DNA from: an uncultured Bacteroidales bacterium | Lineage (GTDB): Bacteria; Bacteroidota; Bacteroidia; Bacteroidales; Coprobacteraceae | Assembly: GCA_949297285.1 (NCBI GenBank) | Contig: CASFRL010000045.1 | Location: forward strand, 1 to 64,000 | Reading direction: 5' to 3' | Length of the DNA stretch: 64,000 bases | Shown: piece after piece, positions 9,434 to 15,815 of the stretch | Numbering within the stretch: the stretch's first letter is position 1 | Layout: the number at the start of each line of letters is the position of its first letter | The notes under the pieces: generated by a model | Told to the model about the DNA's origin: nothing | Seen by the model: the letters and a program-made list of their open reading frames with translations, nothing else | Databases searched by the model: none | Position numbers and translations under genes: made by a program

Positions 9434-9520
9434 GTGCGGTTTTTTGTGCAATAGCAGGATTATTTGACATAATTGTACCCATTTTTTCCACATCGTCCGA
9501 TTTCTCCAAACCGATAAAAA

Positions 9521-9560
9521 AGAAAGCCCTGTCTCGTAATCTACTGAGACAGGGCTTTCT
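9521..9560 (-). terminator. Terminator of the ilv operon
   Basis: A perfect 15-bp stem (AGAAAGCCCTGTCTC with its complement) with a 10-base loop lies 21 bases past the ilvC stop. It is followed on the minus strand by T-rich sequence. Confidence 0.85.
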
Positions 9561-9580: not shown

Positions 9581-10627
9581 TCAATTATTTTCGGGACGTA
9601 ATTTACGTACTACAACCCCGGCTTGCCACATTTCACTGTCGCGAAGATCTTTCAATTCTTTATTCAAACCTTCACGGTAATTCGGTTTACTGTTGGTATC
9701 GATAGAACGTTGAGCTTCGTTTCCTTTAGCCACTTCACTATACAATTCTTCAAATACCGGTTTGGTTGCATCACGGAATTTTTTCCACCAATCCAATGCA
9801 CCGCGTTGTGCTGTTGTAGAACAGTTGGCATACATCCAATCCATTCCATTTTCTGCAATCAACGGCATCAACGACTGCGTAAGTTCTTCAATCGTTTCAT
9901 TGAAAGCCTCCGATGGAGTGTGCCCGTTTGCCCGCAATACATCATACTGAGCGGCAAAGATTCCTTGAATAGCTCCCATCAAGGTTCCACGTTCTCCTGT
10001 CAGGTCTGAGTATACTTCACGTTTAAATGTTGTTTCGAACAAATAACCCGAACCGACACCAATACCCAATGCGATAACCTTCTCTTTAGCCCTTCCGCTC
10101 GCATCTTGGAATACAGCATAACTGGAGTTCAATCCTCGTCCCTGAAGGAACATACGACGCAAACTGGTTCCCGAACCCTTAGGTGCGATAAGAATCACAT
10201 CGATATCGGCAGGAGGAATAATTCCCGTACGTTCTTTGTAAGTAATGGCAAACCCATGCGAGAAATAGAGAGTTTTGCCTGCTGTCAGATGTTTTTTAAC
10301 TTTAGGCCATACTTCGATTTGAGCAGCATCCGAAAGTAAATATTGGATAATAGTACCCCTTTCACAAGCTTCTTCGATATCAAACAACGTTTCTCCCGGC
10401 ACCCATCCGTCGGCAACGGCTTTATCCCAAGTTTTAGATTCTTTGCGTTGGCCTACAATTACGTTGAATCCGTTATCACGAAGATTCAAGCTCTGACCGG
10501 GACCTTGCACACCGTATCCGATAACGGCTATAGTCTCATTTTTTAAAACTTCTCTTGCTTTTTCCAAAGGAAATTCTTCGCGGGTTACTACATTTTCTTC
10601 AACACCGCCAAAATTCATGATTGCCAT
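9581..10627 (-). CDS. ilvC: Ketol-acid reductoisomerase
   Basis: A 348-residue enzyme that converts acetolactate and acetohydroxybutyrate to dihydroxy acids with NAD(P)H and magnesium, the second step of valine, isoleucine and leucine synthesis. The Rossmann motif GYGVQGPGQS lies near residue 37, and the knotted C-terminal domain contains the DLTGERGTLMGAIQG metal-site segment. Length and sequence are typical. It is the last gene of the ilv operon, 47 bases after the acyl-ACP thioesterase, and is followed by a strong terminator. The listed start gives MAIMNF; the Met at position 4 is an alternative. Confidence 0.97.
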   Translation of the reverse strand: MAIMNFGGVEENVVTREEFPLEKAREVLKNETIAVIGYGVQGPGQSLNLRDNGFNVIVGQRKESKTWDKAVADGWVPGETLFDIEEACERGTIIQYLLSDAAQIEVWPKVKKHLTAGKTLYFSHGFAITYKERTGIIPPADIDVILIAPKGSGTSLRRMFLQGRGLNSSYAVFQDASGRAKEKVIALGIGVGSGYLFETTFKREVYSDLTGERGTLMGAIQGIFAAQYDVLRANGHTPSEAFNETIEELTQSLMPLIAENGMDWMYANCSTTAQRGALDWWKKFRDATKPVFEELYSEVAKGNEAQRSIDTNSKPNYREGLNKELKDLRDSEMWQAGVVVRKLRPENN

Positions 10628-10674: not shown

Positions 10675-11445
10675 TTATATCTTTTCTCGATCACGTTCTG
10701 CAAATTCTATCCGTCCCCGACAGATGGCATCTCCACTCTCATTCCGTATTTCTACGGCATAAATCTTTTCTGCAAGTTGCTCGCGATAAAAATGCAAACA
10801 ATTGCCATAACGGGCTTCGCTGACATAATTGATCTCAAACCGGCGAACAAAGTTCTTGTCATATAGGTCTAAAGGGAACTTATCCAGCATATGCTCGATA
10901 TATTTTACACTGTTCACATGACGGTTAATGTCGATGTCGCCATATTGCACGACATATACGGCAGGATTTTCGTCGTTTACCGGTCTTATCTTCGATTGCG
11001 GAGCAATGGGGCAATCCTTATCCGACACGTTATTTGCTATGTGCCGAAAGGTGGTAATATCGACCGACGCACGACTTTGGATATCGATAACCGACCAAAT
11101 CGAACGAGCATATCCGTATATCTTCCCTTCAGGACTACGAAAACAGAAATTACGTGCCGAGAAATGTTTATTATACCCTTCTATCCACGTCTCTATCACA
11201 TATTTATCGTAAACCCTTGGATAAGAAATCATCTCTACGGCCAGTCGGGCCAATACCCATGCTTGATTGCCCTTGATCAAGGAGCTATACCCTACCCCCC
11301 AACTCTCGGCATGATAGGTTGCCGTTTCAAGTATTCGTTTTACAAGAAGGGTCAATGGGGTCTCCTGTTGGGCGTTTCCTTCGGCAGGTTCCAGCTCGTA
11401 AGTATATGTCGCTATTTTTTGCGGATCGTTTTCCATAAATGTCAT
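10675..11445 (-). CDS. Acyl-ACP thioesterase (FatA/FatB type)
   Basis: A 256-residue double hot-dog enzyme predicted to hydrolyse acyl-ACP and release free fatty acids in the cytosol. The N-terminal half has the fold of acyl-ACP thioesterases (YHAESWGVGYSSL). The C-terminal half carries GDIDINRHVNSVKYIEHMLD, which matches the plant and bacterial thioesterase site with the conserved Asn and His. Its ATG overlaps the ilvN stop in an ATGA, so it is translationally coupled to acetolactate synthase. The same position inside the ilv operon is known in other Bacteroidales. A link to branched-chain fatty acid supply is an inference. ATG at codon 4 is an alternative start. Confidence 0.88.
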   Translation of the reverse strand: MTFMENDPQKIATYTYELEPAEGNAQQETPLTLLVKRILETATYHAESWGVGYSSLIKGNQAWVLARLAVEMISYPRVYDKYVIETWIEGYNKHFSARNFCFRSPEGKIYGYARSIWSVIDIQSRASVDITTFRHIANNVSDKDCPIAPQSKIRPVNDENPAVYVVQYGDIDINRHVNSVKYIEHMLDKFPLDLYDKNFVRRFEINYVSEARYGNCLHFYREQLAEKIYAVEIRNESGDAICRGRIEFAERDREKI

Positions 11446-11990
11446 TCTTGAGTAGAAAGACGACGACTTTCCTGTGCTTCGAGGAACAGGCTTACATGTT
11501 CTACTGTCGATTTGGTAATCGCTACACGTCCCGAACGGACAAACTGCATGACTTCGAATTTGCTCAACTCCTCGAACAGTTGTTGGGTTTCTTCGGTATG
11601 GCCAGATTTCTCTATCACCGTATAGGTACGATTTACTTCCAGAATACGAGCATTATGACGACGGACGAGCTCTTCGATACCGCTATCATCCAACAACTTC
11701 TCAGTGGCAACTTTATAGAGGGCTACTTCTTGATAAAATATTTCATCCTCTGTATAAAAGAAGGCCCGAATCACATCGATACGTTTTTCTATTTGTTGCA
11801 CCACTTTTTCGATTGTATCCCGATCGCTATTGGTCGTGATGATAAATTTATGTATCCCTTCGATGGCCGAAGCAGAAACAGAAAGGCTTTCGATATTCAA
11901 ACGACGACGTCCGAAAATAATCGATATCTGATTCAGAAGACCTACTTGGTTCTCTGTATATACCGTTACTGTATATAATATAGATTTCAT
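11442..11990 (-). CDS. ilvN: Acetolactate synthase small (regulatory) subunit
   Basis: A 182-residue regulatory subunit of acetohydroxyacid synthase. The N-terminal ACT domain (TVTVYTENQVGLLNQISIIFGRRRLNIESLSV, about residues 6-75) should bind valine for feedback inhibition. A second ferredoxin-like domain follows. It lies 14 bases downstream of ilvB and overlaps the thioesterase start. Length and order are typical. Confidence 0.95.
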   Translation of the reverse strand: MKSILYTVTVYTENQVGLLNQISIIFGRRRLNIESLSVSASAIEGIHKFIITTNSDRDTIEKVVQQIEKRIDVIRAFFYTEDEIFYQEVALYKVATEKLLDDSGIEELVRRHNARILEVNRTYTVIEKSGHTEETQQLFEELSKFEVMQFVRSGRVAITKSTVEHVSLFLEAQESRRLSTQE

Positions 11991-12004: not shown

Positions 12005-13714
12005 TTAATATTTTTCAGTACTGTTCAATAAAATGTCGGTAACGCATCCTCCTGCCGGAATCATAGGAAATACCATACCTTTTTCTTCTACGGCTACGTT
12101 CAGTAAATAGGCTCCTTTATGTGCCATCATTTCGGCAATGGCCTCATCGAGTTGAGAACGGTCTGTCACATTGCGTCCTTTGATTCCGTAAGCAGCAGCT
12201 ATTGCCGTAAAATCAGGATTGAGCATATATGTCTCAGAGTATCTTTGTTTAAAAAATAATTCTTGCCATTGGCGTACCATACCCAAGAAATTATTGTTCA
12301 GGATAATAATCTTTATATCGACACCTGTCTGCATAACGGTTCCCAATTCCTGAATAGTCATCTGAATGCCTCCGTCTCCGGTAAAGAAACAGACAGTACG
12401 GTCGGGTGCTCCCATTTTGGCTCCAATCGCAGCCGGCAATCCGAATCCCATAGTTCCCAGACCTCCGGATGTGACAATGCTTCGGGGACAGGTATAGTTG
12501 AAATACCGGGCTCCCATCATCTGGTTCTGACCTACATCGGTAACCAATATGGTATTATCTTCTGCGGCTTCAGAAACTTTTCTGACAACTTCACCCATTT
12601 TCAAGGGTCCACCTTCGGGATATACCTCCGGGCGTACGACTTTTTCGAACTCGGTTTTCTCACAGATTTCAAATTCTGAGATCCAATCGGTATGCTTATT
12701 GTTATTGACCTTATCGATCAATGCCAACAACGTTGCCTTGGCATCTCCCAACACCGTAACATCGGCATGAACATTTTTATTGAATTCTGACGGGTCGATG
12801 TCGAAATGAATCACTTTGGCCTGCTTGGCGTATGTATCCAACCCGCCGGTTACCCGATCATCAAAACGCATCCCGACAGCAATAAGCAAATCGCATTCGT
12901 TGGTTTTTATGTTCGGACCGATATTTCCGTGCATTCCCAACATCCCTTTATAGAGGCGATGGGCTGTCGGTATTGCCGACAAACCTAACAATGTGCAACC
13001 GGCCGGAATATCGGCTTTTTCCATCAACTGCAAAACTTCGTTTTCGGCATGGCTCAAAATAACACCTTGCCCTATCAGCAACAATGGCTTTTTAGATTGA
13101 TTGATCAATGCCGCAGCATCATCGATCTCTTTTTCATTGACCTTCGGATAGGGATTATAACTGCGTATGAAATTGCATTTCTGATAATGAAATTCCGTGG
13201 TCCCAACCTGAGCATCTTTGGTAAAGTCCAGCACAACCGGTCCGGGACGTCCTGAACGGGCAATATAGAATGCTCTCGCCACAGCCCAAGCAATATCTTC
13301 GGTACGACGTATCTGGTAACTCCATTTGGTAACCGGTTGTGTAATACCAACCACATCGGTCTCTTGAAAAGCATCTGTTCCCAATAATGAAGAGTTGATT
13401 TGCCCGGTAATGACTACCATCGGAGTACTGTCGACCATAGCATCGGCAACTCCGGTGATGATATTGGTTGCAGCCGGACCGGAGGTTACTAATACGACTC
13501 CTGTCTCACCCGAAACACGAGCATACCCTTGCGCTGCATGAGTTGCTCCTTGTTCGTGCCTTACCAATACATGCTTCAGTCGGTCTCTATAATTGTGCAT
13601 ACAGTCGAAAACCGGCATAATAGCGCCACCGGGATAACCGTATATCAATTTTACATTTTCTTCTAATAGCGAGCGGATCAGAGCTTCGGATCCTGTTATC
13701 TTATCTGTTGTCAT
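12005..13714 (-). CDS. ilvB: Acetolactate synthase large (catalytic) subunit
   Basis: The catalytic subunit that condenses pyruvate with pyruvate or 2-oxobutyrate, using thiamine diphosphate and FAD. The N-terminal pyrimidine-binding domain contains GYPGGAIMPVFD and RHEQGATHAAQGYAR with the catalytic Glu. The C-terminal domain has the TPP motif, from GDGGIQMTIQEL to NNNFLGMVRQWQ. The ATG at 13714 (MTTDKITGSEALI) is preferred over a TTG 13 codons upstream, because it matches family N-termini and leaves a normal 31-base gap after ilvD. The product is then 569 residues. Confidence 0.95.
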   Translation of the reverse strand: MTTDKITGSEALIRSLLEENVKLIYGYPGGAIMPVFDCMHNYRDRLKHVLVRHEQGATHAAQGYARVSGETGVVLVTSGPAATNIITGVADAMVDSTPMVVITGQINSSLLGTDAFQETDVVGITQPVTKWSYQIRRTEDIAWAVARAFYIARSGRPGPVVLDFTKDAQVGTTEFHYQKCNFIRSYNPYPKVNEKEIDDAAALINQSKKPLLLIGQGVILSHAENEVLQLMEKADIPAGCTLLGLSAIPTAHRLYKGMLGMHGNIGPNIKTNECDLLIAVGMRFDDRVTGGLDTYAKQAKVIHFDIDPSEFNKNVHADVTVLGDAKATLLALIDKVNNNKHTDWISEFEICEKTEFEKVVRPEVYPEGGPLKMGEVVRKVSEAAEDNTILVTDVGQNQMMGARYFNYTCPRSIVTSGGLGTMGFGLPAAIGAKMGAPDRTVCFFTGDGGIQMTIQELGTVMQTGVDIKIIILNNNFLGMVRQWQELFFKQRYSETYMLNPDFTAIAAAYGIKGRNVTDRSQLDEAIAEMMAHKGAYLLNVAVEEKGMVFPMIPAGGCVTDILLNSTEKY

Positions 13715-13745
13715 ATAAATTTTTTTCTGCAAAAAATAGTGCTTA

Positions 13746-15575
13746 TTATTCAATAATACGTACTGCTCCTTTGTCGGCCGAGCTGACCATGGCAGAATAT
13801 GCTTTCAATGCTTTCGAAATGTTCCGTTCCCGTTTCTTGGGGGTAAAGGACTTTTTACCTCGGGCTTCTTCTTCCGTGCGCCGTTCGGCTAATTGCTGGT
13901 CGCTAAGTTTAACATTGATCGTGCGTTGCGGAATATCTATCTCTATAATATCCCCGTCTCTGACCAATCCGATATTTCCTCCGGCAGCAGCCTCTGGAGA
14001 TATATGTCCGATCGAAAGGCCCGAAGTTCCGCCCGAAAATCGCCCGTCGGTAATCAGAGCACACTCTTTTCCCAAATGTTTCGATTTTATATAAGAGGTC
14101 GGATATAGCATTTCCTGCATACCCGGTCCGCCTTTCGGCCCTTCGTAAATGATGACGACGACATCGCCTTTTTCTACATCTCCTCGAAGAATTCCTTCAC
14201 AAGCCTCTTCCTGTGATTCGAACACTTTGGCTTTTCCGGTAAAATGGAAAATACTCTCATCCACACCTGCCGTTTTAACGACACAGCCGTCTATTGCGAT
14301 ATTTCCCTTAAGCACGGCAAGACCTCCGTCTTTAACATAAGCATGCTCGAAATCCCGGATGCATCCGTTAGCTCGATCAATATCCAATGAATCGTATCGG
14401 TTGTTCTGCGATGCCATTTCCAAGTTGTATTTATTCCCGGGTGCGCTTTTCCACAATTCGGCCGCTTCTTCAGAAAATTCGGCCCCATCGACCGCATACC
14501 GGGCGATAGCCTGTCCCAGTGTCAACCCATCGACTCGATGCACATGGGTATCCACTAATCCCTGTTTTGCCAATAAACTCATGATCGACAAAATACCTCC
14601 GGCCCGGTTTACGTCTTGAATATGGTAATGAGAATTGGGCGCAACTTTACAAAGGACAGGCGACTTGCGTGACAAACGATCGATATCGTCCATCGTAAAA
14701 TCGACTCCGGCTTCTTGCGCCACAGCTAAAAGATGCAATACGGTATTGGTAGAACCACCCATTGCAATATCCAAAGTCATGGCGTTAAGGAATGCATTGC
14801 GGGTTGCAATACTGCGAGGCAATACCGAATCATCTCCGTCGCGATAATATTTATAACAATTTTCAACAATCTGGGAAGCTGCTTTAATAAACAACTTTTC
14901 TCGGTTGGCATGAGTTGCCACGATCGTTCCATTTCCGGGAAGAGCCAAGCCTATGGCTTCATTCAGGCTGTTCATGGAATTTGCGGTAAACATTCCTGAA
15001 CAAGAACCACATGTGGGACAAGCTGACCGTTCGACTTTAGCCACTTGTTCGTCACTTATCGTCTCATCGGCCGATTCGATCATCGCATCGATAAGGTCCA
15101 AAGCCCGTCCGTTTAAATTCCCAGCTTCCATAGGGCCTCCGGATACAAATATAGTCGGGATATTGAGCCTCATACTCGCCATTAACATACCCGGAGTAAT
15201 CTTATCGCAATTACTAATGCAAACCATAGCATCGGCTTTATGGGCATTGACCATATATTCGACACTGTCGGCGATCAAATCCCGGGAAGGGAGAGAGTAT
15301 AACATACCGTCATGCCCCATGGCAATACCGTCATCAATGGCGATTGTATTGAATTCGGCAGCAAAACATCCGGCCTTTTCTATTTCCGCTTTAATTTTCT
15401 GTCCGATCTCATGTAGATGCACATGTCCCGGGACAAATTGTGTGAATGAGTTGACAATAGCTATAACCGGTTTCCCAATTTGATCTTCTTTCATTCCGTT
15501 GGCTCGCCACAAAGCTCTTGCTCCGGCCATCCGGCGTCCTTGTGTGCTGGTTGCACTACGCAATTGATGTTTCAT
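13746..15575 (-). CDS. ilvD: Dihydroxy-acid dehydratase
   Basis: A 609-residue iron-sulfur enzyme that dehydrates dihydroxy acids to 2-keto acids, the third common step of valine and isoleucine synthesis. Cluster cysteines are seen in [12 protein letters not shown] and in [18 protein letters not shown]; the C-terminal barrel has [21 protein letters not shown]. It is the first structural gene of the operon and lies directly behind the leader-peptide attenuator at 15601-15815, so its expression should respond to charging of branched-chain tRNAs. Confidence 0.97.
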
Positions 15576-15599: not shown

Positions 15600-15634
15600 A
15601 AAAGACCTTTCTGTTATATGAAGAAAGGTCTTTT
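15600..15634 (-). promoter_or_regulatory. Attenuator terminator hairpin (segments 3:4) of the ilv operon
   Basis: On the minus strand AAAAGACCTTTCT pairs perfectly over 13 bp with AGAAAGGTCTTTT around a loop of about nine bases, ending 25 bases before the ilvD start. The 3' arm ends in only four T residues, so this is a modest intrinsic terminator. Its 5' arm can instead pair with an upstream copy of AAGAAAGGT at 15683-15691. Confidence 0.75.
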
Positions 15635-15691
15635 TACTTTATTTTTTCCTAATTTTATGTTGCTCACATAAAGTAACTACATACCTTTCTT
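15621..15691 (-). promoter_or_regulatory. Antiterminator pairing (segments 2:3) of the ilv leader
   Basis: AAGAAAGGT (15683-15691), four bases after the leader-peptide stop, is perfectly complementary to ACCTTTCTT (15621-15629), the 5' arm of the terminator. A nested second helix pairs TTACTTTA (15669-15676) with TAAAGTAA (15634-15641). A ribosome on the leader stop codon would cover segment 2 and let the terminator form; one stalled on Ile, Leu or Val codons would leave it free. The pairings are seen; the mechanism is inferred from classical amino-acid attenuation. Confidence 0.7.
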
Positions 15692-15694
15692 CCT

Positions 15695-15766
15695 TTACTC
15701 TTGCACGACGACATCGAGTAGAGACAAACCCAGAAGGTTAATGATATGTAGAATAACACTAATCAT
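15695..15766 (-). CDS. ilv operon leader peptide, 23 residues
   Basis: A short ATG-to-TAA frame too small for normal gene calling. It encodes 23 residues, 14 of them branched-chain: four Ile (positions 2, 5, 8, 9), four Val (4, 19, 20, 21) and six Leu (6, 11, 12, 14, 16, 17), including the runs HIINLL and DVVVQE. It starts about 12-18 bases after the predicted transcription start and ends immediately before the mutually exclusive RNA helices at 15600-15691. This composition is what attenuation leaders of ilv operons have in Proteobacteria. It is most likely a sensor of branched-chain aminoacyl-tRNA, not a functional product. Confidence 0.8.
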   Translation of the reverse strand: MISVILHIINLLGLSLLDVVVQE

Positions 15767-15784
15767 AATCTTTGTTTTATGGTG

Positions 15785-15815
15785 CAAAGGTATGGGTTTC
15801 ATTTTATATTCCAAA
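15785..15815 (-). promoter_or_regulatory. Promoter of the ilv operon
   Basis: The -33 box TTTG (15812-15815) and -7 box TACCTTTG (15785-15792) are 19 bases apart on the minus strand, a perfect match to the Bacteroidetes primary sigma consensus. It places the start of transcription just ahead of the leader-peptide ATG at 15766. Confidence 0.8.

Follow-up and report, generated by a model that had tools for sequence, protein, structure and literature searches.

In Enterobacteria, the attenuators of ilvGMEDA, ilvBN, leuABCD, his and trp combine a leader ORF rich in cognate codons with protector, antiterminator and terminator arms and an intrinsic terminator before the first gene. In Bacteroidota, a leader-peptide attenuator with Trp codons has been described in front of the trp operon (Bacteroid-trp, Rfam RF01692; Weinberg et al. 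2010, PMC2864571). In addition, leader-peptide attenuation has been noted before amino-acid operons of Flavobacterium psychrophilum, where it was inferred from transcript maps (PMC9723704); the remark takes up one sentence and concerns the same phylum and mechanism in another order, with no operon names or comparison of ilv arms seen in the main text. For B. thetaiotaomicron, short ORFs reminiscent of leader peptides have been mentioned (PMC7366714). Short leader ORFs at branched-chain genes are also found outside Proteobacteria, namely a leucine-rich attenuator peptide for the branched-chain genes of Staphylococcus aureus (PMC5794164) and a conserved uORF upstream of ilvBNC in Corynebacterium (PMC10272879), although these belong to other phyla and no homology is shown. 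The original prediction had called such a layout little described in Bacteroidota. This stands for ilv, of which we have found no case, but it has to be corrected for the phylum, where RF01692 and the remark on F. psychrophilum (PMC9723704) precede. As far as searched, the ilv attenuator is absent from Rfam and apparently undescribed for ilv in Bacteroidales: no description was found in the open-licence literature, and the comparative study of Lopatovskaya et al. 2010, cited in PMC4833913, might include Bacteroidetes cases.

We have analysed the region upstream of ilvD in a stretch of 64 kb (hereafter the window). This region very probably holds a ribosome-mediated transcription attenuator, by which expression of the ilvD-ilvB-ilvN-thioesterase-ilvC operon would be matched to how much charged Ile-, Leu- and Val-tRNA is available. 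Like the enterobacterial attenuators, it has a cognate-rich ORF, competing antiterminator and terminator arms with a putative protector arm, and an intrinsic terminator. On the other hand, it shows no similarity to them by Rfam models, it is preceded by a Bacteroidota promoter, and a single leader serves the whole operon; the RF01692 model does not match it either. Its parts are as follows.

15785..15815, minus strand: predicted promoter of the Bacteroidota consensus, TTTG (15815-15812), 19-nt spacer and TACCTTTG (15792-15785)
ATG 15766 to TAA 15695, minus strand: leader ORF, 23 codons plus TAA, MISVILHIINLLGLSLLDVVVQE
15733..15751, minus strand: arm 1, within the leader ORF, CTACATATCATTAACCTTCT; forms the putative protector (1:2) hairpin with arm 2 plus the extension 3' of it
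15677..15692, minus strand: arm 2, GAAGAAAGGT (15692-15683), plus the extension TATGTAG; AGAAAGGTATGTAG is used in the protector hairpin
15669..15676, minus strand: nested antiterminator helix, 5' side, TTACTTTA, partner 15634-15641
15634..15641, minus strand: nested antiterminator helix, 3' side, TAAAGTAA
15620..15634, minus strand: arm 3, AAAAGACCTTTCTTC, shared by both helices as antiterminator 3' side and terminator 5' arm
15600..15634, minus strand: intrinsic terminator hairpin, arms 3 and 4, AAAAGACCTTTCT (15634-15622) and AGAAAGGTCTTTT (15612-15600), 13 bp

The downstream genes were assigned by family models scoring above their cut-offs, and the operon end was read from the sequence.

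13746..15575, minus strand: ilvD, dihydroxy-acid dehydratase, first structural gene (TIGR00110 and PRK12448)
12005..13753, minus strand: ilvB, acetolactate synthase large subunit (TIGR00118)
11442..11990, minus strand: ilvN, acetolactate synthase small subunit (TIGR00119)
10675..11445, minus strand: acyl-ACP thioesterase, between ilvN and ilvC (PF01643 and PF20791)
9581..10627, minus strand: ilvC, ketol-acid reductoisomerase, last gene (TIGR00465)
about 9515..9560, minus strand: strong intrinsic terminator at the operon end, AGAAAGCCCTGTCT...AGACAGGGCTTTCT followed by a T-run

The thioesterase is perhaps tied to branched-chain synthesis through branched-chain fatty acids.

The individual parts claimed in the original prediction have largely been borne out. 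A promoter is predicted by consensus, TTTG-N19-TACCTTTG, with TTTG as the -33 type and TACCTTTG as the -7 type element on the minus strand, and the consensus recurs in relatives: of 104 related loci, 90 have TANNTTTG in the 110 nt ahead of their leader ATG, compared with 8 in the control window. The leader reads as claimed, with 14 branched-chain residues among its 23 codons (Ile 4, Leu 6, Val 4). Arm 2, which starts 2-3 nt past the leader stop codon, is complementary over 10 nt to arm 3, as proposed for the 5' arm of the terminator, and the nested second helix is there as well. The 13-bp terminator ends 24 nt before the ilvD ATG (15575). Arm 3 can pair with either of its neighbours, arm 2 or arm 4, and the two helices are mutually exclusive. 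The short T tract remarked upon earlier is also real: it has only four T, all of them paired within the stem and followed by CGC, so termination in the window may be partial. This weakness belongs to the species; T runs are longer in most relatives, and the closest species (94% IlvD identity) has five T.

From a transcript start expected near 15779, about 13 nt ahead of the ATG of the 23-codon leader ORF, the polymerase would proceed with a ribosome close behind. With branched-chain amino acids in good supply, translation would run through to the stop codon, where the ribosome would cover arm 2; arm 3 would then pair with arm 4, and transcription would stop 24 nt short of ilvD. Under scarcity, the ribosome would stall on the upstream Ile, Leu or Val codons and leave arm 2 exposed; the free arm 2, together with the nested second helix, would pair with arm 3 before arm 4 is made, and the polymerase would enter the operon. 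If the leader goes untranslated, arm 1 would capture arm 2, and termination would follow by default. Premature termination in the cell, tight coupling of ribosome and polymerase and the response to amino acids are what we infer from parts, conservation, mutual exclusivity, covariation and geometry that can be read directly.

Folding calculations are consistent with such a switch. The 221-nt leader folds at -46.5 kcal/mol, versus -36.0 for shuffles (z = -2.6), while the antiterminator alone reaches -15.9 kcal/mol (z = -3.7) and the terminator alone -14.3 kcal/mol (z = -6.2). The minimum-energy fold of the leader holds the terminator and the protector hairpin (CTACATATCATTAACCTTCT with AGAAAGGTATGTAG), the latter being an addition to the original prediction, which had not mentioned one. 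The stability of this protector hairpin is slightly above that of shuffles in the window. The prediction had also called for folding both states. In the stall state, with the ribosome upstream and the polymerase just past arm 3, the best fold is the antiterminator; in the stop-codon state, with 15 nt masked by the ribosome, it is the terminator. The same two-state folding in relatives used loci picked for complementary arms, and thus illustrates the switch rather than proves it.

We have searched 393 genomes of the order with the IlvD of the window. Of these, 163 matched, and the upstream DNA was examined in 151; 80 further named loci were taken from the genome collection. To be counted, a locus needed an ORF in which Ile, Leu and Val make up at least 38%, a T-tailed hairpin downstream of it and, close to the stop codon, an arm that can pair with the 5' arm of that hairpin. 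By this detector, the full architecture is present in 107 of the 151 order-wide genomes and 40 of 49 families, these counts coming from a looser version, as a strict one missed the unit of the window itself. One of the positives, L124 (f111), looks false, with a low score and a distance of 308 nt from ilvD, and about ten more loci show the unit by eye (e.g., L020, L030, L042, L075, L085 and L116). Control windows of 500 nt were drawn from the DNA flanking the named loci; 19 of 3858 were positive (0.5%, a rate measured after the thresholds had been fixed on the same data), and several of the 19 resemble genuine neighbouring leaders. None of 414 shuffled upstream regions was positive with the stricter version of the detector. 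A check of conservation in relatives had been set beforehand, and its outcome supports the prediction: an Ile/Leu/Val-rich frame and both helices are kept over about 40 families, with compensatory changes. In the genus, the pairing of the nested helix is retained in all five species with G-U/A-U changes (TTGCTTTA/TAAAGTAA and TTGCTTTA/TAAAGTGA). One relative (L030:1-354, genome G026) carries two tandem leader/antiterminator/terminator units ahead of a single ilvD.

On the other hand, about 30% of the sampled genomes are without a detectable unit; some of these units are visible by eye below the thresholds, and other genomes are truly without one. By the detector, no leader unit was found in Prevotella-type genomes. 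Family f29 (L015, L035-L037 and L084), with IlvD 77-84% identical to that of the window, has no detectable leader and has apparently lost the attenuator. The unit is likewise missing from all 17 loci titled as non-Bacteroidota with the same IlvD subtype at 67-72% identity, which come from Desulfobulbaceae and relatives, Spirochaetes, Fibrobacter, Akkermansiaceae and Acidobacteria (L163, L173, L175, L176, L178, L184, L187, L193-L195, L198-L200, L205, L206, L209 and L210). Such scattered leaderless genes suggest either that ilvD was transferred with its control region left behind or that the subtype is older and shared. As the IlvD subtype of the window had no match at E 1e-150 outside the order in the genomes drawn, other orders were examined through TIGR00110. 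In the other orders of the class, at least 4 of 26 ilvD loci, which encode another subtype, have an Ile/Leu/Val-rich leader with a following hairpin (L261, L262, L269 and L270).

Compensatory change is extensive in both competing helices. For a swap test, we used 113 loci selected solely for the ORF and the hairpin, not for pairing. The native complementarity of arms 2 and 3 exceeds that of arms swapped between families (mean percentile 0.756, 41 families, p = 2.9e-7), and 43% of loci reach a score of at least 8, compared with 1% for shuffled arms. Complementarity of arms 1 and 2 also exceeds family swaps, more weakly than that of arms 2 and 3 (34 families, p = 3.7e-5). We aligned 33 sequences, most of them the single representative of their family. 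Here 89.1% of the antiterminator cells are paired, versus 76.7% in shuffles and 49–58% in slid controls, and double changes occur in 9 of its 11 pairs; for the terminator, the corresponding values are 93.7% and 12 of 12 pairs. No shuffle attained the observed covariation values. As these are related sequences that the detector itself selected, the figures are counts of pairs, not probabilities; the slid controls retain the relatedness and yet score far lower than the native antiterminator. Compensated versions of the two arms include GAGAAAGG/CCTTTCTC, GAGAATGG/CCATTCTC, GGAAGGGCT/AGCCCTTCC, GTGGAAAGG/CCTTTCCAC, AATCGGTAT/ATGCCGATT and CCGGGAAGTT/AACTTTCCGG.

These data also bear on the possibility that the untranslated RNA after the leader stop is simply exposed to Rho, with the hairpin merely adding pausing. 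The short T tract of the window speaks for such polarity, but the longer T runs after the hairpin in most relatives, including the closest species, and a terminator stem whose pairs have all changed in compensated fashion make it a very unlikely account. Attenuation by the translating ribosome, in the classical layout that had been proposed, is on the contrary supported by the conserved ORF, the competing helices and the conserved geometry.

The geometry can be read from the leaders of the relatives. As a family average, Ile, Leu or Val occupies the sixth codon before the stop in 98% and the seventh to eleventh codons in 76–88%, falling to 53% at the fourth codon before the stop and 12% at the last. 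These codons peak 5–14 codons ahead of the stop. Counted from the first stop-codon base, arm 2 has a median span of 0 to +9, and most relatives have the stop codon at arm 2 or inside it. Considering that a ribosome covers about 12 nt past the codon being read (PMC4833913), a ribosome stalled at least five codons upstream would leave arm 2 free, and one at the stop codon would hide it. This differs from Enterobacteria: because of the position of the stop codon, it is the terminating ribosome itself that would hide arm 2 in most relatives. The distance from the leader stop to ilvD ranges from about 70 to more than 280 nt while the geometry of the arms stays constant, and the stretch between the arms is free in length and sequence among families. 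The peptide sequence also differs widely between families, with its composition and its register to the stop codon kept. Overall, apart from the protector hairpin, which has partial support, the features of an attenuator that can be tested on sequence are all present.

Further leaders occur in the genus. In front of leuA (L214-L217) there is a Leu/Ile-rich leader, MKPLASLLIGLQIIILLRTIDRK, and in front of hisG (L224-L228) a His-rich one, ...NITLHHGHHHS; both are followed by a T-tailed terminator with a matching arm by eye. Neither has a match in Rfam, and both are apparently attenuators too. A leader with tandem Trp codons precedes trpB, where Bacteroid-trp (RF01692) is matched in 4 of 5 species; trpE, also considered as the leader-bearing gene, was discarded, as it is internal and has no leader. 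The thrA leader (L299-L302) is Thr-rich, e.g., ...TYTTTTTP*, and ends at a conserved ACCCCTTAGGGGGT hairpin spanning the stop codon; it has no obvious T-tailed terminator and is apparently of a different design. Among Marinifilaceae (L192, L201 and L202), a conserved Ile/Leu-rich leader-like ORF with a terminator lies near 13000–13500, some 5.5 kb past the point where ilvD starts. It surfaced through the control-window matches and possibly leads a following leu operon.

A different reading takes the leader as a functional small hydrophobic peptide of the membrane and the hairpin as an ordinary terminator that lowers readthrough, without any switch. The leader peptide of the window is indeed hydrophobic, and single membrane helices are common among small bacterial proteins. 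However, over all leaders the residues are 18% I, 18% L and 21% V, whereas F (1.7%), A (2.5%), M (1.0%) and Trp (0.4%) are rare, which argues that selection favours Ile, Leu and Val as such rather than hydrophobic residues in general. A membrane peptide would also not account for a sequence so variable between families with its composition and register retained, for an arm 2–arm 3 covariation that a plain terminator does not need, or for the His-rich and Trp-rich leaders of the sister operons. We therefore consider this reading highly improbable.

Still less credible is that a ligand-binding RNA, such as a T-box or an amino-acid riboswitch, drives the terminator with the ORF being incidental. 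Pairs of terminator and antiterminator are common in T-boxes and riboswitches, but apart from tRNA, the window and 20 related loci give no Rfam match above gathering score, the T-box model included, and scans of the ilv leader, a permissive one among them, gave chance matches only. In addition, the freely varying stretch between the arms leaves no conserved aptamer, and the conserved part is the composition of the ORF. Translational attenuation, in which the competing helices would block or free the ilvD start and transcription is not ended, has in its favour that the hairpin is close to ilvD, and yet it can practically be discounted, as the terminator ends upstream of the gene, the ilvD start is in none of the arms, and the spacing between leader stop and ilvD differs severalfold among loci with arm geometry kept. 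On the evidence of composition, covariation, Rfam and distances, the membrane peptide, the T-box or riboswitch and translational attenuation are rejected as explanations, and ribosome-mediated transcription attenuation remains our preferred reading.

Rfam has the trp version alone, a gap that the ilv attenuator would close. It would also offer a concrete, order-wide element through which the regulation of branched-chain synthesis can be tested directly in a major group of gut bacteria, its arms being defined well enough for mutation. It is possible, and we put it forward tentatively, that leader-peptide attenuation is the general control of ilv, leu, his and trp in Bacteroidales, probably also in the wider class, on a common plan that places the stop codon at arm 2 or inside it and makes the terminating ribosome the switch. 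The coupling of transcription and translation is an open question for most bacteria other than E. coli. Since the switch requires a ribosome that follows closely, its conservation is indirect evidence for coupled transcription-translation in Bacteroidota. If this mode of control is indeed general in Bacteroidales, it would mean that ribosomes closely trail RNA polymerase in bacteria that make little use of Shine-Dalgarno signals.
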